From a virus: a stretch of DNA of 64,000 nt. The notes under the pieces are model-generated. The model saw only the letters and a list, made by a program, of their open reading frames with translations. It ran no database searches and had not been told where the DNA came from. Position numbers and translations under genes: made by a program. Shown piece after piece: positions 25,803 to 63,004 of this stretch (its first letter is position 1; each line of letters opens with the position of its first letter). Location of the stretch: positions 108,624 through 172,623 of the IMG/VR virus record IMGVR_UViG_3300025520_000001, one strand, 5' to 3'.

Positions 25803-26768
25803 TTATTTCTGCCCTTTGAAGAACTTCTCCAACTTGTTCATAGAGAAAGCCTTGTTGCACTTGCGGCACTTCACTTGGAATTTACCGTAAACTTGTTCGT
25901 CTCCGCAATCGTCGCACGTAATGAACTTGAGACTCTTAGGTCCCAATGATTCACTCTGAAGTACGCTACCGCCAGTCATAGAGCCAGGTGCTCCTGCGCC
26001 GCCGTAACCAGCCATGAGAGCCTTTTGCACGGTTTCATGAATATGTACGACATTATCAGCAATCCTGCGTTCTAGTGAAGCTTTAATTAGTTCCTGCTTG
26101 AGGTTCACGGGAGCTTCACTACCAAGTGCTGACATAATCTTATTGATGTTATGCTCGATCTTTTCTGCTGATGCAGTCCGCGTGATGTGTCGGAAGGACG
26201 GTACGTCTGTCTGAGCTAAATGAAGTACTGATTTAATCAAAATCATGTCCGCATTTGTATCGGTTTCGTTCTTGGAGAGATTTAGCGGCTCTACGAGAGT
26301 AGCCTGATTAGCAGGAACGAATGTCAGTGCAACTGAGTGAATCTTAGTTCGAGCCAGCAGACTAGGATCCTTGATTCCGCGGGCAACTACACCGCCCTCT
26401 ACTGAAGCCTTTACTTTGAGCGGACAATCCGTCTTGTGAATGTTCCGAAGGATGGCCGCGGCAGCCTTAGCATTGGGGTGGTCCTCGTCGTTAAACAGGC
26501 GGGCCTTCACGTAAACATAGGGACTTTTTACCTTTTCCCAGTAATACCGCTGACGATCATCCTCGCAGTCTTCTGCTTTGTAGATCTTTTTGGCCGAGAT
26601 CACCTTACCGAGACAGTTGAAGAAGCCTTTGCCGTGGTTGTCGTTAATTCGACCCCGACCAGCCTCTAATTCGGAAATATCTGCCCCATTTACATCCAGC
26701 ATTTCGCCCTGTGTATCTCTAAGTTGAGAACCAGCGCACATATCGATCTCTAAAGAATGTTTGGCCAT
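25803..26768 (-). CDS. Prohead maturation protease with C-terminal zinc ribbon
   Basis: The 321-residue protein has its first 160 residues matching phage prohead proteases, with a catalytic His in NDNHGKG (His45) and Ser in KASVEGGVVARG (Ser123). A four-Cys zinc ribbon (CDDCG, CRKCNK) ends the protein. Between them (253 to 275) is AGYGGAGAPGSMTGGSVLQ, nearly the same as residues 31 to 49 of the capsid protein. This may be a shared cleavage or assembly signal. It is on the strand opposite to the capsid gene. Confidence 0.75.
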   Translation of the reverse strand: MAKHSLEIDMCAGSQLRDTQGEMLDVNGADISELEAGRGRINDNHGKGFFNCLGKVISAKKIYKAEDCEDDRQRYYWEKVKSPYVYVKARLFNDEDHPNAKAAAAILRNIHKTDCPLKVKASVEGGVVARGIKDPSLLARTKIHSVALTFVPANQATLVEPLNLSKNETDTNADMILIKSVLHLAQTDVPSFRHITRTASAEKIEHNINKIMSALGSEAPVNLKQELIKASLERRIADNVVHIHETVQKALMAGYGGAGAPGSMTGGSVLQSESLGPKSLKFITCDDCGDEQVYGKFQVKCRKCNKAFSMNKLEKFFKGQK

Positions 26769-28080: not shown

Positions 28081-29526
28081 ATGAACGACACAGTTAATCA
28101 AGTATTACAGGGTCTCGAGTCCGGTCTCGTGTCAGCGGCTGAAATCGAGGCACTCAACAAGGCAATCAGCGCAGGCTACGGCGGCGCTGGCCGGCCCACG
28201 GACCTCACCTATGGTGGCGTCCTCCAGGCCGAGTCACTCGAGACGACTCTCAAGAGCGTCACGTTTGACATGAAGAACCTCAAGATGTGGCCTGCTGTTT
28301 CAGTTGATAAGGCATACAACTTGTTCGAGCAGTACAATCGTCTAATCGCGTATGGTAGCGATTCGGCGCCGTATATTGGCGAAGGCGGAGCTCCTCAAGA
28401 GGAAGATTCGACCTACGTACGTGACGGTCAGAAGATCGTGTTCTTCGGTACGCGTCGTCGCGTTAGCCACCAGATGACGCTTGTGCGGGTCACTGTCGGC
28501 GATATCGTGGCGCAGCAGGCCAAGGAAGGCACGATGCACCTTCTGAAGAACGTTGAGCGCGAACTCTATTGGGGTCACGCGCACTACCAGAATCAGAGCA
28601 CTGGCGCAATGACGGGTTCAGACGCAGATCTTCCCTCGAGCTCGATCGCGATGAGCGGCCTCTTGAAGCAGCTACTCAAGGGTGACACCGATGCGCAGAT
28701 GATCTCCGGTGATTTCAACGGTTATGGCAACACGAGCTCGATCCTCCAGGATCTCGCGGGTGCGGTTATGACCCAGGACGACGTCGAAGCCCTCGCGGTT
28801 ATTGCTCTTGAGAACTTCGGTTCGCCGAGCGAGCTCCACGCTGAGCCTGCGGTAATCTCGGCCTTCGTCAAGCAGTTCTATCCTCAGTTCCGTTCGGCGC
28901 CAGGTCTTGCTAACCAGACTGTCGGCTACGACGTGTCGAAGATCCAGACTACGGCTGGTGCGATCGACCTCAAGCCCAACCTCTTCCTCCGTCCTCGCAG
29001 CGGCGTTCGCGCTGTCGCGAGCGGCGTCTCAGCTCCCGCTGCGACGTTTACGGCGTCTGGTGCGGCTGCTGGTTCAGGTTCAACCTTTGCGGCTGGTACG
29101 TACCAGGTTAAGGTTACAGCGGTTAACGACAGCGGCGAATCGGCCCCTGTTGCTTCAGCGGCTGTTGTCCTCACCCTTGGTCAGAACATCGACGTGACTA
29201 TCGGCAGCGTCCCTGCTGGCGTGAAGTCATGGAAGGTGTATGTCTCGGCTCCGGGTGGTGCGGCAGGCACCGAGAAGTTCGCGGGTAACTGGGCAAATGC
29301 TGGTGCGGGTGTTTATCGCTGCGCTGGTGCGAAGCTCCCCGGTCTCGGCGAAGCGTTCCTCCTCGACATGAGCGCAGAGAACATGCGCTTCAAGCAGCTT
29401 GCTCCTCTCTCGAAGATCAACTTCGCGATTGTGACCACTGCTCTCGAGTTCGCGATTGTGCTCTACGGTGCACTCTTCGTCTACACGCCGCGCTTCAACT
29501 GCGTGTTCAAGAACGCAGGCAAGTAA
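28081..29526 (+). CDS. Major capsid protein with inserted Ig/FN3-like domain
   Basis: The 481-residue capsid protein is probably of HK97 fold. The N-terminus carries AGYGGAGRPTDLTYGGVLQ (31 to 49), then the body VTFDMKNLKMWP, VYD-type loops and a C-terminal FAIVLYGALFVYTPRFNCVFKNAGK end. Residues about 317 to 420 are an inserted beta-sandwich with FN3-like sequence (AGTYQVKVTAVNDSGESAPV), likely exposed on the capsid surface. GC content and codon choice are more biased than around it, as expected for very high expression. It is followed by a strong terminator. Confidence 0.85.
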   Translation: MNDTVNQVLQGLESGLVSAAEIEALNKAISAGYGGAGRPTDLTYGGVLQAESLETTLKSVTFDMKNLKMWPAVSVDKAYNLFEQYNRLIAYGSDSAPYIGEGGAPQEEDSTYVRDGQKIVFFGTRRRVSHQMTLVRVTVGDIVAQQAKEGTMHLLKNVERELYWGHAHYQNQSTGAMTGSDADLPSSSIAMSGLLKQLLKGDTDAQMISGDFNGYGNTSSILQDLAGAVMTQDDVEALAVIALENFGSPSELHAEPAVISAFVKQFYPQFRSAPGLANQTVGYDVSKIQTTAGAIDLKPNLFLRPRSGVRAVASGVSAPAATFTASGAAAGSGSTFAAGTYQVKVTAVNDSGESAPVASAAVVLTLGQNIDVTIGSVPAGVKSWKVYVSAPGGAAGTEKFAGNWANAGAGVYRCAGAKLPGLGEAFLLDMSAENMRFKQLAPLSKINFAIVTTALEFAIVLYGALFVYTPRFNCVFKNAGK

Positions 29527-33378: not shown

Positions 33379-33513
33379 GTGAGAATTTGGTGGAAGTGGA
33401 ATGATCGTGGTTATATTCAGAACTTTTTCTGGCTTCTCTGGAAGCTGGGTCTGAATAAAGAAGCTGTTAATGTCAACGACAATTCGCTTAAGAATTTATA
33501 TTGGAAGCCATGA
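33379..33513 (+). CDS. Micro-protein, array member (Trp-rich), 44 residues
   Basis: The start is GTG. The AGGAG in the 3' acceptor strand of the tRNA lies 6 nt before it and could serve as the ribosome binding site. The centre NFFWLLWKLGLNKEAV matches the next micro-gene (RFFRLLWRLGLNKKAS). The stop overlaps the next start as ATGA. Function unknown. Confidence 0.5.
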   Translation: MRIWWKWNDRGYIQNFFWLLWKLGLNKEAVNVNDNSLKNLYWKP

Positions 33514-33638
33514 ATGATAGATACGATAGTTATCGCTTTTTTCGTTTATTGTGGAGACTAGGGCTCAATAAGAAAGCATCGGACGTCGGTGATGCTTGGA
33601 TGCAGGCTACATTCCTGGTAATGCACCATGACCGATAG
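33510..33638 (+). CDS. Micro-protein, array member, 42 residues
   Basis: The core YRFFRLLWRLGLNKKAS is nearly the same as in the upstream micro-gene. It is coupled to that gene by ATGA and overlaps the next start. It forms a hydrophobic-aromatic helix with basic residues, then a short polar tail. It may sit at a membrane or bind a partner protein; no homologue is known to me. Confidence 0.5.
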   Translation: MNDRYDSYRFFRLLWRLGLNKKASDVGDAWMQATFLVMHHDR

Positions 33639-35604: not shown

Positions 35605-37248
35605 TTGAGTAAGACTAAGTCGCAGTCATCTACAGCAAAGAATGAAAAGGATAGTGAACAAAAAAAGTCTGGCATAGTATCAGATTACGCAAACTTGTTC
35701 GACAAGTTAAATCGGGCTCCAAAAATGGACGAACTTGTAGAGCTAGGGCATACAAAGGACTCAATTAAGCACCATTTTTCCTCGCTTACGCGGCTAGAGG
35801 AAATTGCTCGAGAGGAATATCCCGATAAGTTCTTTGACGTAGAGATTGCCGATCTTATTGAAGAGCGCGACCTAGTAAGCAAGCTGCGAAAGGTGGTAAA
35901 GCAGCATAACAAATTCGTTATTACGACCGCTATTACAGGCTGCAAAGTTCACGAAGGCTTTCACGCGAGCCTAAAGAGTTTCTGCAAGCAGAATAAGGCG
36001 GCGCTGCTTATTCTCGTTGCTTCGGATCCTGCTCACTACAAGCCTTCTAGTGGCTACGGAACTATAGATTCAGAATTAGCTAAAGAATGTGTTGTAGTAG
36101 AAGATACTTACCTTAATTCGAACTTCTTTATTAGCACTATCAAGCTTTCAGCAAAGCAACCCAACCCCACAACTGGTTTAAGTGACATTGGTCAGCGCGA
36201 GGGTAGTTTTGTCTTCGCATCACCGAAGCAAAGCATGACGCTGGAATCTACCTCTAACGAGAAGCTTCCTCACGTGATGATGACGACGGGCGCAATTACA
36301 TCTCCTGACTATGACACGGGAATTTACATGTCGGAACGTACTGCCTACATTGCTGATAAACACCATGTTATGGGCGCTATCTATGTGAATATCTTCGATG
36401 ACATTAAGTACGGTTATACGCAGATTCAGATGCTTAATGAAGAAGGTAGTTTTGTACACTTTGGTAAGCGTTACTATCCCAACGGTAAGATCACAAGTGA
36501 ATCGCCTGAAGTTCTTGTGTGCGGTGACTGGCATTCGGGCGAGACAGACCCCGCTGTGCGTGAGTGCACAGAGGAAATGCTTGGCTTCTTTAAGCCGCAA
36601 AAAGTTGCTCTTCATGACTCGTTTAACGGTAAGTCTATCAATCACCATGAGGAACACAACACCATCACTAAAGCTCAGCACTTTATGAACAATACGCCTT
36701 CGCTCGAACAGGAATTTGTTGGTCTCAGAGACGATCTTGATTGGTTTGCCAAGCAGGTTGAAGAAGTTGTTATTGTAAAGTCGAACCATGACGAGTTTTT
36801 ATCTAAGGATTATCTCCGGTATGCTAAGTATGCTAAGGACCCTCAGAATCACTACTTCTCTCTAGATCTCGCTAAGGCAATGATGGAAGGGAAGGATCCT
36901 GTTAAGTTCGCTACGGAAAAGGTTGGTCTCCAGGCTAAGAATGTCCGCTGGCTCCAGCGTGATGAGGACTTTAAGGTAGCTGGTATCCAGCTTGGTGCTC
37001 ACGGTGATATTGGGCCAGCCGGCACCCGCGGCAATATAAAGAATATGCGTAAATCATATGGTCTGTCGGTGACTGGACACAGCCACTGTCCGGGTATCTG
37101 GCACGGAGCTTTTGCTGTCGGCACATCTTCATTCCTGAAGCTTGGCTACAACCAGGGACCCAGTAACTGGATGCAGACGCACGCCTTGGTCTACAGTGAC
37201 GGAAGTAGGCAATTAGTAAATATTATTAAGGGACAATGGAAAATATAA
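35605..37248 (+). CDS. Large metallophosphoesterase, phage T5 A1-like
   Basis: The 547-residue protein has an N-terminal 130 residues that are charged and helical, possibly helix-turn-helix-like. The C-terminal half carries CGDWHSGE, HDSFNGKSINHHE, VIVKSNHDEFL, GAHGDIGPAG and VTGHSHCPG, the D-x-H, N-H-D and G-H-x-H ligands of calcineurin-like enzymes. Size and order resemble the T5 pre-early protein A1, which is needed for host DNA destruction. The start is TTG with AGGAGA 6 nt upstream. The T5 link is from memory of the family and should be confirmed. Confidence 0.65.
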   Translation: MSKTKSQSSTAKNEKDSEQKKSGIVSDYANLFDKLNRAPKMDELVELGHTKDSIKHHFSSLTRLEEIAREEYPDKFFDVEIADLIEERDLVSKLRKVVKQHNKFVITTAITGCKVHEGFHASLKSFCKQNKAALLILVASDPAHYKPSSGYGTIDSELAKECVVVEDTYLNSNFFISTIKLSAKQPNPTTGLSDIGQREGSFVFASPKQSMTLESTSNEKLPHVMMTTGAITSPDYDTGIYMSERTAYIADKHHVMGAIYVNIFDDIKYGYTQIQMLNEEGSFVHFGKRYYPNGKITSESPEVLVCGDWHSGETDPAVRECTEEMLGFFKPQKVALHDSFNGKSINHHEEHNTITKAQHFMNNTPSLEQEFVGLRDDLDWFAKQVEEVVIVKSNHDEFLSKDYLRYAKYAKDPQNHYFSLDLAKAMMEGKDPVKFATEKVGLQAKNVRWLQRDEDFKVAGIQLGAHGDIGPAGTRGNIKNMRKSYGLSVTGHSHCPGIWHGAFAVGTSSFLKLGYNQGPSNWMQTHALVYSDGSRQLVNIIKGQWKI

Positions 37249-52890: not shown

Positions 52891-53044
52891 CTATATGGAT
52901 TTCTTTTTTGAGAAGCCTATATGCACCGTTTGCTGTCAACGAAGTGCAAAGCCTTAAGCGGATCATTAAAAAAAATATGGTGGGCCAGAAAACATTAACT
53001 TTGTTTCGACGATAGCCATCAACTATGGTCTCATGTAGTTTCAT
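52850..53044 (-). CDS. Micro-protein, array member, 64 residues
   Basis: The core TIFFLMIRLRLCTSLTANGAYRLL fits the hydrophobic-helix plus Ala pattern of the other micro-genes (quoted in part). The ATG overlaps the upstream stop (ATGA) and GGGA lies 6 nt before. The last 41 nt overlap the convergent plus-strand gene. Function unknown; confidence is moderate because of that overlap. Confidence 0.4.
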   Translation of the reverse strand: MKLHETIVDGYRRNKVNVFWPTIFFLMIRLRLCTSLTANGAYRLLKKEIHIANLVLVRPKGSSR

Positions 53045-53166
53045 GGTGTTTCCCATGATCGCCAAGCGGGCCGCATTGATCGCAGCTCTCTGTCTTCTAT
53101 ATTAATTTTTATAGCCATCAGGTTCTCATAACTAATTATCTTTAATCGCCACAAGTTGTCGAGCAA
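53041..53166 (-). CDS. Micro-protein, array member, about 41 residues
   Basis: The core LLDNLWRLKIISYENLMAIK resembles the LLW[KR]LGL array proteins. The start is uncertain: the frame is open from 53301, but a strong promoter lies inside that part (53224 to 53252). A TTG at 53166 with AGG 8 nt upstream is the most likely start. The stop is coupled to the next gene by ATGA. Confidence 0.35.
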   Translation of the reverse strand: MLDNLWRLKIISYENLMAIKINIEDRELRSMRPAWRSWETP

Positions 53167-53223
53167 CTTGCTGACCTGATATCCAGCGGATTTAATGTAT
53201 GGTGTAGACCTAACTATTGGAAT

Positions 53224-53252
53224 AGTATACATTACGAATACCGTATAATCAA
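53224..53252 (-). promoter_or_regulatory. Sigma-70-type promoter
   Basis: TTGATT, a 17-nt spacer and TATACT with TG directly before it. It is the best -35/-10 pair I found in the window. It faces leftward and would transcribe the two micro-genes at 52850 to 53166. The long minus-strand operon ends upstream of it. Confidence 0.6.
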
Positions 53253-53331
53253 GTGTGTTCCTAATTTCACTTTCGCCGCGCGTAGTGTCTGGTAGCCACA
53301 CAGATCGAGAGCGTACGTGGTTAAGAGAAAC

Positions 53332-53778
53332 TTATTTACTAGCTGCACAGAAAACTTTGAGGAGCGCAACTTGTTTCTGGACATACTCTTTGTCATTGAG
53401 TTTCCTATTACGACCTGAAGGATGAGGCATCTCGAAGAAATCTAACTTAAGCTTAGAGAGCACCTTACTAGCGTTCTTTCCAAGCGCCACAATTCGATCA
53501 GGATTGATTCCTTTAATCCTCTCGAGAAGGGATGCCGATGCTTGGGCCATCTCATCAGAATTCAGAGGGCGGTTGTTTTCCGTGACCTGGGGCACGATAT
53601 TATCGAAGACGATGTTGCCTTCTACGCCCTCAATCCAAGTCCGAATAATGCGGCCCGAAGCAGTGTCGGCAGTAAAGGCTTCAGTACTCGTCGCCTTCTG
53701 TGAAGGATTGCTGCCGATAAATAGGATCGTCAGTTGGTTTTGCATAGTTGACATTTCTTGTAACGAAATTTGAAACAT
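53332..53778 (-). CDS. Uracil-DNA-glycosylase superfamily protein
   Basis: The 148-residue protein has the two active-site signatures of the UDG fold: ILFIGSNPSQKA (22 to 26, like GMNPS in Mug/TDG and GQDPY in Ung) and MPHPSGRNRKLND (His119, like HPSxxN). It is short for the family and lacks the Ung Asp. It may repair deaminated bases or act on an altered base. The start could be 53778, 53754 or 53745; upstream micro-gene sequence overlaps the first. Confidence 0.65.
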   Translation of the reverse strand: MFQISLQEMSTMQNQLTILFIGSNPSQKATSTEAFTADTASGRIIRTWIEGVEGNIVFDNIVPQVTENNRPLNSDEMAQASASLLERIKGINPDRIVALGKNASKVLSKLKLDFFEMPHPSGRNRKLNDKEYVQKQVALLKVFCAASK

Positions 53779-53938
53779 AGAATACTGTGCCCTGTACGGC
53801 CGGCCAATTTATTGACAGTTTTCGAGTGTTTACTATTGGCTGCAAAACAAGCTTAACAAAAACAACAAGAAGGCAACTAAACGCCTTCTCAATTTGCTTA
53901 AAGTTTTTAACTTCTAATGAGTTATTGGACCAGTCCAT
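53681..53938 (-). CDS. Micro-protein, array member, 85 residues (overlaps UDG gene)
   Basis: Residues 15 to 35 (EKAFSCLLVVFVKLVLQ) share the hydrophobic-helix pattern and the EK-x-[AF] lead-in with the gene just upstream (EKLKNIAFGFAITLVRLQL). The C-terminal third runs over the start of the UDG-like gene by 98 nt, so either the UDG start is internal or this gene is shorter in use. Function unknown. Confidence 0.35.
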   Translation of the reverse strand: MDWSNNSLEVKNFKQIEKAFSCLLVVFVKLVLQPIVNTRKLSINWPAVQGTVFYVSNFVTRNVNYAKPTDDPIYRQQSFTEGDEY

Positions 53939-54101
53939 AATTAGCGTGTCTTTCTATCAGAAGATTGAGTCCAGGGTCGCCAAACTTGTCCCAGTTTTTG
54001 GCAGTGACCAATTGGAGTCGAACTAATGTTATAGCAAAACCAAAAGCTATATTTTTTAGTTTTTCCGTTTTAGTCCAACTGCGGGTGTTATAAAAGTTCA
54101 T
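53913..54101 (-). CDS. Micro-protein, array member, 62 residues
   Basis: The core is EKLKNIAFGFAITLVRLQL, then VTAKNWDKFGDPGLNLLIE. The start overlaps the dCMP deaminase stop (ATGA), and its end overlaps the next micro-gene by 26 nt. Same layout as the arrays at 57 kb: hydrophobic helix, Trp, then a Leu/Ala helix. Confidence 0.5.
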
Positions 54102-56483: not shown

Positions 56484-56666
56484 TTAACACATTGTACTTT
56501 TCTTGTACGCCGCAGCCGTCTCATTCAGCGTGAACATAGGAACCTCAATGTCCTGGCCCTTAATCATAGGCGGAATATTGAGTTGTTCATGCGGAGAAAG
56601 GGGTGCGAGCTTAGCAAGGGCGATACGGATCATCTGGGCAAATTCTTCTTCTTCAGGGGATCGCAT
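56484..56666 (-). CDS. Small protein, unknown
   Basis: The protein has 60 residues: acidic start, helix, then Pro-rich end. The start at 56666 has GGAG 6 nt upstream and overlaps the upstream stop (TAATG). No family is recognised. Confidence 0.4.
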   Translation of the reverse strand: MRSPEEEEFAQMIRIALAKLAPLSPHEQLNIPPMIKGQDIEVPMFTLNETAAAYKKSTMC

Positions 56667-56854
56667 TACGGCTCCGTTTTGGTGATGTGCTTTTCTGAGC
56701 ACAGTTGCAAGAAGTTCAGGAAGCTAAGAAAACCAAGTAAGACAAAGTCAATGTCGTCTTGCCATATATCGTGCTTTCCGTTTACATAGCGTACGTGGCC
56801 AAATGGCAAACTTCCTGTCTTCTTGCCTGCAATATACTGCTTACTCGCTGTCAT
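56666..56854 (-). CDS. Micro-protein, possible array member, 62 residues
   Basis: The C-terminal part (DFVLLGFLSFLNFLQLCSEK) is a hydrophobic helix like those of the adjacent array; the N-terminal part is polar with Gly and His. It is coupled on both sides (ATGA upstream, TAATG downstream). Confidence 0.4.
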   Translation of the reverse strand: MTASKQYIAGKKTGSLPFGHVRYVNGKHDIWQDDIDFVLLGFLSFLNFLQLCSEKHITKTEP

Positions 56855-57039
56855 GGGTATCTACTTCTTGTGATGCGAACGTATTCATCTTTAGCCATTA
56901 CATATGCTTGGTTGTCTGTTTTCTTTTGCCAAAGGCCAATTTTGCCGCCTAAATAAAGCAAGTAATCAAGAGCTTCAAGCTTGCGCTTATTTCGAGCCAT
57001 AACAACTTCGGTCTGTGGAAGTTGTTCATCATAGATCAT
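56851..57039 (-). CDS. Micro-protein, four-member array, copy 4
   Basis: The protein has 62 residues with the core EALDYLLYLGGKIGLWQKK, then DNQAYVMAKDEYVRI. The aligned columns with the three upstream genes are [DNS]-[YW]-x-[LF]-x-x-x-G-x-x-[IL]-x-L-W and A-x3-A near the end. Overlaps both neighbours. A start at 57000 (MARNKRKLEALDY) is an alternative. Confidence 0.55.
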   Translation of the reverse strand: MIYDEQLPQTEVVMARNKRKLEALDYLLYLGGKIGLWQKKTDNQAYVMAKDEYVRITRSRYP

Positions 57040-57175
57040 CGTTGATTTTTGCTTTTGCCATCTCGAAAGCCCTTAAGCCGGTTGCGTGTTTCCACAGGTC
57101 GAGGCGTAAGCCCACCGTCAAGAGCCAGTTGAAGGCCTTGATTACCTCGTAGCGATATGGCGGTTCCTTCGTCAT
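57029..57175 (-). CDS. Micro-protein, four-member array, copy 3
   Basis: The protein has 48 residues with the core KAFNWLLTVGLRLDLWKHA, then AFEMAKAKIND. It is short but fully aligned with the flanking copies, and coupled by ATGA upstream and an 11-nt overlap downstream. Confidence 0.55.
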   Translation of the reverse strand: MTKEPPYRYEVIKAFNWLLTVGLRLDLWKHATGLRAFEMAKAKINDDL

Positions 57176-57345
57176 CGGATCTTACGTAGAAAAACCTCTT
57201 TAGCCAACATGAGGGCGTTGTTATCGGCCATGTAACTCCAGAGCTGCAGGCGTCGCCCGGTAACAAAAAAGTAGTCAATCGCCCTCATCACCATGGTGAT
57301 GTTTGCCCCCACTACTAACCTAGAACGCAAATCAGAATGTTTCAT
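57172..57345 (-). CDS. Micro-protein, four-member array, copy 2
   Basis: The protein has 57 residues with the core RAIDYFFVTGRRLQLWSYM, then ALMLAKEVFLRKI. The ATG at 57345 lies inside the end of copy 1; the stop is coupled to copy 3 by ATGA. Confidence 0.55.
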   Translation of the reverse strand: MKHSDLRSRLVVGANITMVMRAIDYFFVTGRRLQLWSYMADNNALMLAKEVFLRKIR

Positions 57346-57532
57346 TGTTCTGTGTTTTAAAATACCTGAGAGCCGAGCTTGCAAAATTAAAGGCGTCTAT
57401 GTCGCCGTCGCGGCTCCAGAGATTTAAAACTCGTCCAAGGTAGAGGACATAAGATACTGCACGCAGCGCGGCCTCGGCGTCTTCATGTTTTTTCACCAAG
57501 AAGAACAATTTAAACGACTTGTTTGTCTTCAT
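57332..57532 (-). CDS. Micro-protein, four-member array, copy 1
   Basis: The protein has 66 residues with the core RAVSYVLYLGRVLNLWSRD, then DAFNFASSALRYF. It starts on the stop of the transglycosylase gene (ATGA). The N-terminal 20 residues (KSFKLFFLVKKHEDAEAAL) are specific to this copy. Confidence 0.55.
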   Translation of the reverse strand: MKTNKSFKLFFLVKKHEDAEAALRAVSYVLYLGRVLNLWSRDGDIDAFNFASSALRYFKTQNNETF

Positions 57533-58005
57533 TGAGTGATTAACTGAGCGTACTTAGTCGTGTACGACGAACCAATAATATCTTCATCTGAAGCATTTTG
57601 GCTGGCAGTTAAGCCCCATCGCCAAGCATAGACGGCACGAGGAAGGTTGGGAGTTGACGCACGCAGAAACAACCAATGTGTATTTGCGCACTGCGTATAC
57701 AGGCGCCGATTGGTCCAGAACGCCTTCAGGAACAATCGCTCATCCTCGAGCCCCGGGAACTGCTGGCGAAGCTTCGCAGTCTTCCGATACATCCAGTGTG
57801 CTGTGCTGGGTTTGAGCCCAAGCGAACCGAAAGCCGTATGAAAGTCACCGAGCGGATGAGCTCGGTGATTGACATACTTGCCGTATTGTGACTCGATGCT
57901 AGCAATACCATTCAGCTCGCGATTCAGCCCTTCAAGCGGCCAAGTAGATATCTTTGCGTCTACGGGAATGAAAGAAACCGCAAATGCAACGAACTTAGCC
58001 CACAT
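57529..58005 (-). CDS. Lytic transglycosylase-like protein (SLT fold)
   Basis: The protein has 158 residues. The start (MWAKFVAFAVSFIPVDA) is a possible signal sequence. GIASIESQYGKYVNHRAHPL carries the probable catalytic Glu (Glu38) in the SLT pattern, followed by GDFHTAFGSLGLKP. It probably cleaves peptidoglycan, for lysis or DNA entry. The rest is helical (LRQQFPGLEDERLFLKAFW), as in goose-lysozyme/SLT folds. It heads the array of micro-genes. Confidence 0.65.
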   Translation of the reverse strand: MWAKFVAFAVSFIPVDAKISTWPLEGLNRELNGIASIESQYGKYVNHRAHPLGDFHTAFGSLGLKPSTAHWMYRKTAKLRQQFPGLEDERLFLKAFWTNRRLYTQCANTHWLFLRASTPNLPRAVYAWRWGLTASQNASDEDIIGSSYTTKYAQLITQ

Positions 58006-58018
58006 AGAAAAGCCTTTC

Positions 58019-58186
58019 TTATGGCATGTGCCTATCCCAAACTAATCGGCCTGGTGCTTTTGTCCTGAACAGTTTCAACCTGCGGGTAACTTTAAGAAAC
58101 GCCGCGTAGCGATCTACTACAATATAGTCGTCGAAGGTCTCACCCAACCGCCAAGCCGGCTTGTGTGGAAAGAAGAAAACTGTCAT
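58019..58186 (-). CDS. Small protein, FPH[KR]P-LGETF pair, copy 2
   Basis: The protein has 55 residues, FFFPHKPAWRLGETFDDY then KVTRRLKLFRTKAPGRL. It aligns along its length with the upstream gene (FPHRPSRFLGETFHDT). The C-terminal helix with RRLKLF also resembles the 57 kb array. It is coupled by ATGA. Confidence 0.5.
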   Translation of the reverse strand: MTVFFFPHKPAWRLGETFDDYIVVDRYAAFLKVTRRLKLFRTKAPGRLVWDRHMP

Positions 58187-58377
58187 ACGTTATGTCTTGC
58201 TCTTACCAGATAGTAAGGCATTGTTGCATCGAAGAGCATAAGCCGATGGCTCATAAGCAAGATAACACTGTATTGTTCTTGCAACTCCGTATCGTGAAAA
58301 GTTTCCCCAAGGAACCTAGACGGTCTATGGGGAAACTGGAACTTGGGCTGTTTACTTTCGCTCGTCGGCGGGAGCAT
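58183..58377 (-). CDS. Small protein, FPH[KR]P-LGETF pair, copy 1
   Basis: The protein has 64 residues. KFQFPHRPSRFLGETFHDT is followed by SHRLMLFDATMPYYLV. The most likely ATG (58377) lies inside the end of the gene at 58352, in another frame. It is the partner of the gene at 58019. Confidence 0.45.
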   Translation of the reverse strand: MLPPTSESKQPKFQFPHRPSRFLGETFHDTELQEQYSVILLMSHRLMLFDATMPYYLVRARHNV

Positions 58378-58789
58378 CTTCGACTGTTCCGGCGACGCAC
58401 GTGTACTCCTTCTCCTCGAAGGCCGCAAGCGTGTTCTCCATGATGATGTCGATGTAGTGTGCTTCGATGTAGTCGATGGTGTTCGCATCGAGAAGGAGGA
58501 CCTTCTTCTTGGGGTCCTTCTCCAAGATGATCACCTTGGCGTGGTGCTGGTGTTCCACCCACATGTCGCCAACTTCCTGGCACATCTCAGTGAAGTCGTA
58601 TGGACCATGGACAGTCGAACAAAGGAATTTTACTTTGTTCGGGTCGCCTGTGCCAACAGCAACCATGTAGGTCTTTCCCTTGATGGGAGTGAGGTCCATT
58701 ACCTCAGCTTCAGCGAGGAATTCACGCTGCTCTTCGGTGACCTGCTCAACGGGTTCGAGTGGTGCTGCAACGCCCTGCGCATTCGACAT
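58352..58789 (-). CDS. Unknown acidic alpha/beta protein
   Basis: The protein has 145 residues, with Val/Ile-rich strands (KVIILEKDPKKKVLLLDANT) and acidic ends, well expressed by its site (AAGGAG 8 nt before ATG). GC-rich and codon-biased compared with the micro-genes around it. No family is recognised. Confidence 0.5.
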   Translation of the reverse strand: MSNAQGVAAPLEPVEQVTEEQREFLAEAEVMDLTPIKGKTYMVAVGTGDPNKVKFLCSTVHGPYDFTEMCQEVGDMWVEHQHHAKVIILEKDPKKKVLLLDANTIDYIEAHYIDIIMENTLAAFEEKEYTCVAGTVEDAPADERK

Positions 58790-59997: not shown

Positions 59998-60725
59998 ACC
60001 TTTTCTCCTAACATCTTTTTAATGATTTCAGTGTCTTTCTCGTAAGCGTGCATACTGTGTGCAATATGCGTATATTTACCCTTTTCCAAGTCAGGATAAG
60101 TAGGCTTGAGTTCTTGCAGCATCTTGTCGATTAGGCTGCAAAACCACGGCAAGTCATACACTAGACCAAGCACAACGTCATTCGACCGCATGACAATAGT
60201 TAGATTTAGCTTATTTTCACGAATCAGCCAATTGCCAGTGAGCGTACAGACCTGATCCTTGTTTCCAATCCATTTGTGTTCGGGAAGGGCAAAATGCATC
60301 ACAGCCTGGCGAGTGTCCTTGTCAGCAATAAGTGACTCTTTGGCCCACTCCCACGGAGTCATGGCTCGGTCGCTGAAATTGCTTGAACAGCTGTAGTACT
60401 TCCATAAGAGATGTCCATAAGCCGAGTTGATAGTGCCGTCCGGATTTGCAAGCTTACTCCAAAACTTACTAGCCGCAGCGAAGTCAACAACTCTATTAGT
60501 CCCATTATCATATAGAGCGACTTCCTTCGCTGTGTAGTCTGCGATAATTTGGTTTCTATTTTCATCAGCAGTCTGAATCGGTTCAGAAGTTGGATTTAAG
60601 ACAGAGAATGAGTAGTCTACCTTTTCTCTAATAGGAAGACCTCTGGGTGCTGCCTTGTAGTCGGGATTGTTAAATACGTCTCGCAAGACTTCGCGGTACG
60701 CTTCATGTGTAGTTTGATAGTTCAT
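59994..60725 (-). CDS. Thymidylate-synthase-family protein, dCMP-type (hydroxymethylase or methylase)
   Basis: The protein has 243 residues (T4 dCMP hydroxymethylase has 246). The catalytic Cys is Cys160 in KDQVCTLTG, and RSND (180 to 183) matches RSCD of thymidylate synthase. LGLVYDLPW aligns with LGLPFNIAS, so Asp191 replaces the Asn (E. coli Asn177) that selects uracil. This Asn-to-Asp change marks dCMP enzymes. All positions keep the same offset of 14 from E. coli ThyA. It probably makes a 5-substituted dCMP. Confidence 0.75.
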   Translation of the reverse strand: MNYQTTHEAYREVLRDVFNNPDYKAAPRGLPIREKVDYSFSVLNPTSEPIQTADENRNQIIADYTAKEVALYDNGTNRVVDFAAASKFWSKLANPDGTINSAYGHLLWKYYSCSSNFSDRAMTPWEWAKESLIADKDTRQAVMHFALPEHKWIGNKDQVCTLTGNWLIRENKLNLTIVMRSNDVVLGLVYDLPWFCSLIDKMLQELKPTYPDLEKGKYTHIAHSMHAYEKDTEIIKKMLGEKV

Positions 60726-61291
60726 AGTTTATTTCTTATGTAGCTTTCTATTGCTTCCCACTCATACCCATCCTTATGGATTCGACGCGTTTCTAAGGGA
60801 GCATGCGTATTATACGGATAAGAAATCGTGATCAAGTGGGCCTTGGGGTGCGCCTTCTTATAGGCTGCGAGATTCTCAACCTTATCGTCAATAAGGACAT
60901 CCGCTGCCATGAGGTGTTTATCACGTAAGAACCAGAGCTTTTGGCTACTATCAAACCAAGGCATCATTGCCTTGAACCATTGAAGAGTCTCGGCTGTGCA
61001 TACAATACCGTGTCTTGCAGTGACAACGTTCACATCATGACCGGCATCATGCAGCTTCTTTAGGAAAATGTCGGCATCTGCCATCATCGGCAGGTGAGCT
61101 GTAAAGCCAGGCTCATTGAGCGGAGCCATCAAGTCCGCCACTGGCACCTGGTCCAGTGGCGGACACTCATTAAGGTTCCATTTGGTGATGTCACTTACCT
61201 TGGCCTTCACTCCCGTTGTCTCGTGGATGCGTTTCAACCATGCAGGTAACGTATCTGTAATAATGCCATCGACATCGACCAAAATTCTCAT
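60722..61291 (-). CDS. 5'(3')-deoxyribonucleotidase-like HAD phosphatase
   Basis: The 189-residue protein starts RILVDVDGIITD, with the two Asp of the HAD motif I (8 and 10), TARHG as motif II and DVLIDDKVENLAAY as motif IV. It matches the NT5C group, which removes the phosphate from deoxynucleoside monophosphates. It may empty an unwanted dNMP pool. The start at 61291 has GAGGAC upstream. Overlaps the TS-family gene (ATGA). Confidence 0.8.
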   Translation of the reverse strand: MRILVDVDGIITDTLPAWLKRIHETTGVKAKVSDITKWNLNECPPLDQVPVADLMAPLNEPGFTAHLPMMADADIFLKKLHDAGHDVNVVTARHGIVCTAETLQWFKAMMPWFDSSQKLWFLRDKHLMAADVLIDDKVENLAAYKKAHPKAHLITISYPYNTHAPLETRRIHKDGYEWEAIESYIRNKL

Positions 61292-61304
61292 TTGTCCTCG
61301 TTTA

Positions 61305-61475
61305 CTATAATTCAGCTTCCCAGCGTTCCACAAATGCTCTACAACGCTGGGAAGCAACTACAAAGTTTGCTGCTGTGTCAAAAGAAATTAACTGAAACCT
61401 GTATAGCAGTATGAATAGTGCTCGCGTTGCTTTTTCTGGCTGCCATGTTTTAGCGCTTTTTAATGTTGGGCGCAC
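61305..61475 (-). CDS. Micro-protein, array-like, 56 residues (GTG start)
   Basis: The core ATRALFILLYRFQLISF, then DTAANFVVASQRCRAF, aligns with the four-member array at 57 kb (RAVSYVLYLGRVLNLW, DAFNFASSALRYF). No ATG is in frame; GTG at 61475 is the likely start and lies inside the upstream micro-gene. This separate copy supports a true family. Confidence 0.4.
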   Translation of the reverse strand: MRPTLKSAKTWQPEKATRALFILLYRFQLISFDTAANFVVASQRCRAFVERWEAEL

Positions 61476-61578
61476 GAGGTATTAGTTCCACCATTTCTGC
61501 AATTGATAATTCCGACGAGTGCAAATCCAGCTGTTGGGTAAACTGCAGAAAGAATAAGATATACCCATATGCTGACAT
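61450..61578 (-). CDS. Micro-protein, 42 residues
   Basis: It has a hydrophobic start (SAYGYILFFLQFTQQLDL) followed by an acidic helix and a basic end. The ATG lies one base after the stop of the nucleotidyltransferase gene. Function unknown. Confidence 0.4.
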   Translation of the reverse strand: MSAYGYILFFLQFTQQLDLHSSELSIAEMVELIPRAPNIKKR

Positions 61579-61579
61579 T

Positions 61580-62572
61580 TCAACTACGGACTGCTGACCA
61601 ATGTGCATTAGAAACCAACTCATCCATCAAGGTGTGATTGGGCTTATGCGTCAGTGTTGACTTTGCTTCTGCATCTTTGATGTCAGCAAGTCCCTGATCG
61701 ATCAGGGCTTCAACCTGTTCGTACGGCAACTCACCTTTACGGATTGCTAATAGCAACGGCGCTTCAGGTCGAGGAAAGGTGATGTGTCCGGTGAGAAGAA
61801 GCTCCTTGGCCTCTGCTGCAATTCGGACTGCATGCATAGTTGCTTTCCAGTCCACGCCATTTGCTGATTGAGCTAGTCGAGCTCGATGACCGTACTTATC
61901 TACGACAAACTGAAAAACTTGACGGGCGTAGTCAACAGTGCAGGTATAGCTCACCTTTCTGTTGGCAAGCTGCAAATGCGGAATGTCCTTAAGTTCATTC
62001 ATTCCGCCGGGCGAAGGAACCATAACTACTTCGGCTTCTTTGGAGTTGGCTAATTGCACTAATTCAGCAATCTCGTTAGCGTAGTTACCTAGTTCAGCCT
62101 TCCCACTCCAATCCTTCATGGCTGCCATGAAGAGATTCAGTGCAGAAAGCCTATCACCCTTGTTGCCGTACTTGGCAGCTTGTGCCTTAGTGTAACCCAC
62201 AAAGGCGTTAGTTCCCTTGTGAATCAAGTGTTGGCGGTTGTCCACGATCTCGAGCCAGCGATCATGTACAGGAACATTGCTGCAGTAGAAGCGCCTTGGA
62301 GTAAACAACATGTCCAGCGCTACAGTTTGACCCTGGCGGATGAGTTCCATGTATGTTTGGAACGAGAATGACTCATCATCCACATCCTCAGCGGTATTTC
62401 GCTTGGAATCATCCTTTTTGGTGGAGTTCCGAATGTGCTTAGAGGCTCGTTGCATTACGAGGTCTTGAGCGTCAGGGATAAAAACTCCCTTATAGTCTTG
62501 GTCAGAAGACGGAAGGTTGGTGCCATAAACATGGCTACCGAACATCATTTTTACTAGTTGAAGATTTGGCAT
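61580..62572 (-). CDS. Nucleotidyltransferase (RlaP / polymerase-beta-like)
   Basis: This 330-residue protein has GSHVYGTNLPSSDQDYKGV near residues 12 to 30, the G-S-x(n)-D-x-D signature of polymerase-beta-type nucleotidyltransferases. It is of the type found with RNA repair systems (RlaP family). The rest is helical and conserved-looking. It probably adds a nucleotide to RNA ends or another acceptor. It lies in an operon with an RNA ligase. The start at 62572 has AGAGG upstream. Confidence 0.7.
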   Translation of the reverse strand: MPNLQLVKMMFGSHVYGTNLPSSDQDYKGVFIPDAQDLVMQRASKHIRNSTKKDDSKRNTAEDVDDESFSFQTYMELIRQGQTVALDMLFTPRRFYCSNVPVHDRWLEIVDNRQHLIHKGTNAFVGYTKAQAAKYGNKGDRLSALNLFMAAMKDWSGKAELGNYANEIAELVQLANSKEAEVVMVPSPGGMNELKDIPHLQLANRKVSYTCTVDYARQVFQFVVDKYGHRARLAQSANGVDWKATMHAVRIAAEAKELLLTGHITFPRPEAPLLLAIRKGELPYEQVEALIDQGLADIKDAEAKSTLTHKPNHTLMDELVSNAHWSAVRS

Positions 62573-62723
62573 AATACCACCTCTGTGCAAAGTCATATTC
62601 CTCTGAGATGTACATATCCCACTGGGGTATCTCAGGAAACAAATAGACGTATACGTAAATTAGCTTGTCCAGTAGACGAGCCATTTCATCTATTTTAGCT
62701 CGTCTACTTTCTGTTGGGTGCAT
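62535..62723 (-). CDS. Micro-protein, LFP array, copy 3
   Basis: The protein has 62 residues with LLDKLIYVYVYLFPEIPQW, then EEYDFAQRWYYAKS. It shares an L-F-P turn after a hydrophobic helix with the two upstream micro-genes. A start at 62684 is an alternative. It overlaps the nucleotidyltransferase start by 38 nt. Confidence 0.45.
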   Translation of the reverse strand: MHPTESRRAKIDEMARLLDKLIYVYVYLFPEIPQWDMYISEEYDFAQRWYYAKSSTSKNDVR

Positions 62724-62847
62724 GCTTTAATGCGAGATCAGTCCACTTTGATTCATAGGGATACCCATATATTTTAGGGAAAAGAGTCCCCATCATTCTA
62801 ATGAAACGCCATGTTGCTGCTAAACCATGTACCCGTTTATCTTCCAT
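62704..62847 (-). CDS. Micro-protein, LFP array, copy 2
   Basis: The protein has 47 residues: TWRFIRMMGTLFPKIYGYPY, then WTDLALKHAPNRK. It aligns with both neighbours at the L-F-P-[EK] turn. The ATG (or the one just before it at 62850) lies inside the upstream gene; the end overlaps the next by 20 nt. Confidence 0.45.
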   Translation of the reverse strand: MEDKRVHGLAATWRFIRMMGTLFPKIYGYPYESKWTDLALKHAPNRK

Positions 62848-63004
62848 CATGGCGTTTCACAAACGCTAGCCACGGACCGGTACCAACATACCTAAACCAT
62901 CCACGCTTGGGAAACAATGAGTTCATCACGTTGAGTAAAGCATAAGTGCTTGTCAGCCCGCTGAGAACGTCAACTTGGGGACGAACTTCACTTGTTGTTT
63001 TCAT
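62837..63004 (-). CDS. Micro-protein, LFP array, copy 1
   Basis: The protein has 55 residues: STYALLNVMNSLFPKRGWF, then GPWLAFVKRHDGR. It starts 3 nt after the RNA ligase stop. The three copies are chained by overlaps. Confidence 0.45.
   Translation of the reverse strand: MKTTSEVRPQVDVLSGLTSTYALLNVMNSLFPKRGWFRYVGTGPWLAFVKRHDGR

Follow-up and report, generated by a model that had tools for sequence, protein, structure and literature searches.

Four tandem micro-genes of a tailed phage as part of a putative micro-protein superfamily sharing one helix

The window analyzed in this work (64,000 nucleotides, bases 108,624-172,623 of the 172.6-kb IMG/VR virus record IMGVR_UViG_3300025520_000001) carries four overlapping genes of 48 to 66 residues on its minus strand, at 57532-56851. 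Micro-gene 1 (57332..57532, minus strand, 66 aa, helix core SYVLYLGRVLNLW) overlaps micro-gene 2 (57172..57345, minus strand, 57 aa from its ATG, core DYFFVTGRRLQLW) by 14 nt; micro-gene 2 overlaps micro-gene 3 (57029..57175, minus strand, 48 aa, core NWLLTVGLRLDLW) by 4 nt within an ATGA, and micro-gene 3 overlaps micro-gene 4 (56851..57039, minus strand, 62 aa, core DYLLYLGGKIGLW) by 11 nt. An alternative upstream TTG start would extend micro-gene 2 to 57384, giving 70 aa. The gene set and its joins, by ATGA or by overlaps of 11-14 nt, are as the original prediction had described them. A 158-aa ORF upstream of gene 1 (57529..58005, minus strand) and a 62-aa ORF downstream of gene 4 (56666..56854, minus strand, PSSM score not above threshold) are each connected to the array by a 4-nt ATGA overlap. 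The upstream ORF had been taken for a lytic transglycosylase, an assignment left unconfirmed by sequence searches of Pfam, PHROGs and PDB, which returned no matches; close relatives of this ORF were likewise not found in IMG/VR.

Leave-one-out HMMs, in which any three of the copies were used to search for the fourth among the 2,131 ORFs of the phage, recovered genes 1 to 4 with E-values of 2e-7, 2.7e-8, 3.7e-6 and 1.1e-9, respectively, with the next ORF at E > 0.5. Judged by these profiles, the four genes are real paralogues whose likeness goes beyond chance, including gene 3, which lies slightly below the genome-wide PSSM threshold (gene 2, PSSM 29.1) yet is retrieved by its three neighbors. 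Pairwise identity among the copies is only about 22-25%, in keeping with the earlier view that none is a recent copy. The signature originally proposed contains one residue too many and in its printed form fits none of the four; once an [LF] is dropped, [DNSY][YW]x[LF]xxGxx[IL]xLW matches exactly these four genes, no other ORF in the phage or in the related genomes scanned, and nothing in 20 shuffled sets. The Ala-x3-Ala second helix that had been predicted was found in all four. An AlphaFold (AF2) model of gene 4 (pLDDT 80) is an alpha-hairpin with helices at residues 9-33 and 39-59 and L-x-L-W at the turn. Close homologues of gene 4 were not found in IMG/VR or INPHARED, and the related contigs yielded a single weak relative of the four-gene family (G002:152125, E 0.002).

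The source virus is a tailed phage encoding a DnaE-like polymerase, terminase, portal, capsid protein and tail sheath. IMG/VR contains about 100 relatives of its major capsid protein (28081..29526, plus strand, phrog_752), with identities of 66-100% for the best 80. Homologues of the capsid protein in genome bins were found in Bacteroidota MAGs in three of three cases (Saprospiraceae, Cytophagales and Flavobacteriaceae), and on these sequence assignments the hosts of the phage clade are therefore probably Bacteroidota. Related contig G001 was left out as independent evidence because it is 100% identical to the phage of the window, and a nucleotidyltransferase gene of the window, tried as a synteny anchor, had no matches in 41 related contigs. 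Several features were recorded separately. The head maturation protease (25803..26768, minus strand, phrog_1028) and the capsid protein contain a common peptide, AGYGGAGxP...GG.VLQ.ESL, which may serve as a signal for processing or targeting; a uracil-DNA glycosylase superfamily protein is encoded at 53332-53778 (minus strand, Pfam E 3e-13); and an HNH-like endonuclease family (CxxC...HIDH), represented by few copies in other relatives, reaches about 17 in relative G006 (L105-L113).

Weak matches to the four-gene profile pointed to arrays elsewhere in the phage, such as eight tandem genes at 60,724-61,866. A first position-specific profile collected 41 ORFs in the phage and 0.33 in shuffled ORFs, and a profile seeded solely with other phages collected 44 ORFs, against about 2 expected, with genes 1, 2 and 4 of the window among them. 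The same other-phage-seeded scan gave 41 ORFs in G002, 38 in G010, 35 in G003, 25 in G007 and 22 in G006; with the best of three seeds, 38 were obtained in G009, 24 in G012 and 16 in G015. Seven related contigs have about 18-39 micro-genes apiece, and after the cut applied for statistics 12 (G015) to 39 (G002) members were kept in the relatives. No members clearly above chance were found by these profile scans in G005, G008, G014 or the outgroup Bacteroides phage DAC16; for the three clade members, either the set is dispensable or it was missed through incomplete contigs. Column-permuted seeds recruited 0-5 ORFs, against 34-45 for the real seed, so profile iteration does not invent such families. 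By profile evidence, then, the four window genes are part of a superfamily of about 45 micro-genes in this phage, mostly 36-100 aa. The single family of the original prediction is genuine; it is not confined to four copies, and forms one local branch of a superfamily that is genome- and clade-wide.

All four window genes are tandem, translation-coupled small ORFs outside conserved genes, as is usual for the superfamily, and genes 1, 2 and 4 have a helix core (15-18 residues) scoring above the shuffled and permuted controls, with gene 3 just short. Further members on the minus strand of the window are a 56-aa protein (ALFILLYRFQLISFDTAANF, 61305..61475, PSSM 23.5), an 86-aa protein read from GTG (KLLDNLWRLKIISYENLMAI, 53041..53301, PSSM 23.3), a 54-aa protein (KFLLTTYALDLCGYQTLRAA, 53232..53396, PSSM 12.3) and, probably, a 59-aa protein (GFAITLVRLQLVTAKN, 53922..54101, PSSM 12.8). 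The plus strand has a 44-aa member (FFWLLWKLGLN, 33379..33513, PSSM 23.5) with orthologues in two related contigs, overlapped by a 45-aa member (FFRLLWRLGLNKKASDVGD, 33501..33638, PSSM 23.7). A 55-aa possible member (YAAFLKVTRRLKLF, 58019..58186, minus strand) exceeded the PSSM threshold in the first scan only and was absent from the later one; it is a paralogue of the C-terminal half of 58183-58488. These two adjacent ORFs (58019-58488, minus strand) are a local duplication and share FPH[KR]P...LGETF.D ahead of a helix-like C-terminus. The G010 contig has about 34 genes arranged head to tail at 144,489-149,745, with ATGA joins in about half. Only 2 of 44 members in the phage of the window lie inside conserved genes, compared with 46% of its small ORFs, and ATGA coupling is frequent. 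Most arrays are far from head genes and near copies of an unrelated gene of about 150 aa. The family of this neighbor (NWLRKDKRLNGG...KNPGSRxGSGD) has 3-4 copies in most clade genomes, those of G000 lying at 36200, 58837, 62460 and 64135 (L003-L005). Three more overlapping micro-ORFs at 62535-63004 (minus strand) have in common a motif of another kind, LFP[KE], and could form a further small family.

The element common to the superfamily is an amphipathic helix, L-x-x-[LM]-[LM]-x-[KR]-L-x-[LIV], which most often ends in a turn; in the phage of the window a second helix comes after it. A set of 118 micro-proteins drawn from five phages has the consensus LxxLLxKL and an overall mean column identity of 5%. 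The helix has a clear hydrophobic face, and its helical hydrophobic moment is 1.26 versus 0.80 for shuffled sequences. All six leucine codons are in use at the conserved leucine positions; the helix is therefore conserved at the protein level, and an embedded Shine-Dalgarno sequence or a DNA repeat was ruled out as the cause of the motif. The helix is almost absent from ORFs longer than 130 aa (8 matches, versus 2 in shuffled sequences). Its position varies among members, which have it at the N-terminus, in the center or at the C-terminus, and in a model of the G010 array (pLDDT 88) it comes after a sheet of three strands. The helix has a distinct dialect in each phage (L-x-L-[IWCF]-S in this phage, KLGIKSA in G007, KLGVID in G010), and this phage-specific sequence is retained while the flanks are not. 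Motifs were assigned to their own phage by dialect in 61% of cases versus 12% when permuted, a figure inflated because the members were selected with per-genome profiles. Common nucleic-acid binding was rejected as an explanation, since the micro-proteins of G009 and G012, unlike those of most phages, are not basic. A search for Bacteroidota-type promoters gave one match, fewer than expected.

Searches for known families agreed with the original view of the family as a new one. Comparison of the superfamily with Pfam, PHROGs, NCBIfam, PADLOC and PDB gave nothing beyond chance; the four window genes were scanned against Pfam and PHROGs, and the PADLOC and NCBIfam scan covered 118 relatives, in which models of known anti-phage and anti-defence proteins had chance-level matches only. 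Regulators of the helix-turn-helix or ribbon-helix-helix type had no significant Pfam match (best, HTH_72 at E 0.049 in 1 of 53) and none in the 118 relatives. Fold searches gave no match below E 0.09, and the open papers searched had no description of such a family.

Selection was assessed on orthologous micro-protein pairs, in many of which pN is far below pS between phages; the trio that includes 33379-33513 has pS of 0.49-0.72 and pN of 0.15-0.19. Several superfamily members are thus under purifying selection between phages, and a few scored ORFs, in which pS does not exceed pN, are probably false members. The possibility that these reading frames arose by chance, or that a DNA repeat is being translated, draws on the abundance of small ORFs and on these few, which behave as frames overlapping conserved genes would. 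Against it stand the permuted-seed control, the leucine codon diversity, the depletion inside genes, the ATGA coupling, the purifying selection and the leave-one-out recovery of the four window genes, and we regard it as hardly credible.

One orthologue, located between the portal and kinase-like genes, is present in about 20 contigs (20 loci) and has, apparently, a layout of strand, helix and second helix. Its median dN/dS is 0.53, and the best pairs reach 0.1-0.5. Its profile aligned with set A1, the members of this phage including the four, at an hhalign probability of 88% (E 3.4e-6); against the four window genes alone (4 sequences) it reached E 0.11, not a significant match. We infer that this portal-adjacent gene is a plausible ancestor.

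Outside the helix, members differ almost completely and most flanks match nothing. Matches to conserved clade proteins at E<0.01 were found for 6 of 279 helix ORFs versus 0.4 for shuffled flanks, a count that was not blind, as five of the six were added by hand after an earlier genome-wide search, with the E-values standing individually. Among more than 250 members, a recognizable virion segment is limited to about 10, and the four window genes are not among them. One such segment is an arm of the capsid protein (residues 47-77, ESLxxxLKSVTFDxxxLKxW), present in six phages, each time in micro-proteins that also have the helix (L020 weak), with profile comparison giving an hhalign probability of 97% (E 9.7e-11). 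The helix comes after the capsid segment in two phages and before it in four. Of 51 residues identical between capsid-arm members and the capsid gene of their own phage, 26 use different codons, and because about half thus differ, the resemblances are long-kept rather than freshly copied. Elsewhere, G003:176173 carries the N-terminus of the sheath, G007:124744 the N-terminal portion of a protein assigned as tail tube from its synteny, and L016:5679 a segment of a 1200-aa tail-region protein, with G002:19096 a weaker case. For another capsid segment (residues 227-266), the resemblance seen in three micro-proteins is only suggestive.

Two alternative roles bear on these segments. In one, the displayed capsid, tube or sheath segments would be immune decoys that occupy host sensors ahead of the real virion proteins. 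Tail tube sensors such as DSR2 are known (PMC11087589), and the capsid-arm resemblance has been long maintained in six phages; most members, however, have no virion segment, three capsid-arm members lie within the head operon, whose genes are not expected to be expressed early, and a PADLOC match is absent, so that we consider decoys improbable. The capsid-arm members of L019 and L025 adjoin the head maturation protease gene, and that of L020 is similarly placed relative to the capsid gene. This location, together with the core orthologue beside the portal gene, would suit packaged or assembly-associated micro-proteins directed into the prohead by helix or arm, in the manner of T4 internal proteins. 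The capsid-targeting peptide of T4 internal proteins, however, is N-terminal and cleaved, whereas this helix varies in position among members and so does not fit an N-terminal peptide removed by the prohead protease, and most arrays are distant from head genes; packaging is in our estimate quite improbable. The T4 internal proteins are alike in being small, diverse and provided with a short common peptide, and differ in that the helix here can be internal, N-terminal or C-terminal and its bearers are far more numerous.

The reading we prefer, held tentatively and at slightly less than an even chance, is that the four genes belong to a clade-specific, fast-turnover micro-protein superfamily built on one docking helix, with members serving as modular adaptors or inhibitors whose partner and function we infer. 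Docking on a shared partner, or co-assembly, would best account for a common helix that is joined to unrelated payloads and takes a phage-specific form. The helix would dock on a common partner, be it a phage or host hub or the micro-proteins on each other, and the variable part would bind a different target in each member, making the array a set of adaptors or competitive inhibitors; the suggestion in the original prediction of adaptors or inhibitors with different targets comes near to this. Members with capsid, sheath or tube segments would probably engage assembly interfaces of virion proteins, their own or those of rivals, and the four of the window would represent an all-helical hairpin form. 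A shared helix could also arise through common descent, or through simple self-association, with no single docking partner involved. We are more doubtful of a specific version in which expandable single-helix adaptors, matched to a partner in each phage, have payloads in either order, including virion imitations, and capture or block assembly interfaces or sensors.

The members may instead be ordinary accessory micro-genes, in which a tandem-duplicated alpha-hairpin has diverged, each protein acts alone on a host or defence target, and the helix is a hydrophobic core with no common partner. Tandem arrays, fast turnover between phages and the compact hairpin model are consistent with this, and it is well established that phages have hypervariable regions with many small ORFs (PMC2147016, PMC11323111). 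The flanks, however, are more than diverged: the helix occurs at either end or centrally, or on a beta sheet in one array, it lies on either side of virion segments, and phage-specific sequence is kept in it but not around it. We find this explanation unlikely, while giving it real weight.

Among described systems, the hypervariable or 'hyperplastic' small-ORF regions of T4-type phages and phage 0305phi8-36 (PMC2147016) are similar in that a large phage carries numerous tiny accessory genes, arranged in tandem and changing fast; here, in contrast, dissimilar genes share one helix with a phage-specific dialect, and some have virion segments. Anti-defence small proteins of the DSAD1 type (PMC11087589) are likewise small phage proteins in an arms race with virion-protein sensing, whereas the present genes form a large array with a common helix and no PADLOC sequence match. 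The architecture, in which a single helix recurs in dozens of micro-proteins that are dissimilar in other respects, would be new; if these are ordinary accessory micro-genes, it is of a known kind.

On the preferred reading, tens of micro-genes per phage that have been taken as unrelated hypotheticals would form one system with a definable common element, and the helix would provide a handle on the phage dark matter of Bacteroidota viruses. If the payloads mimic virion segments, they would point to a new means by which phages keep assembly, rivals or immune sensors in check.
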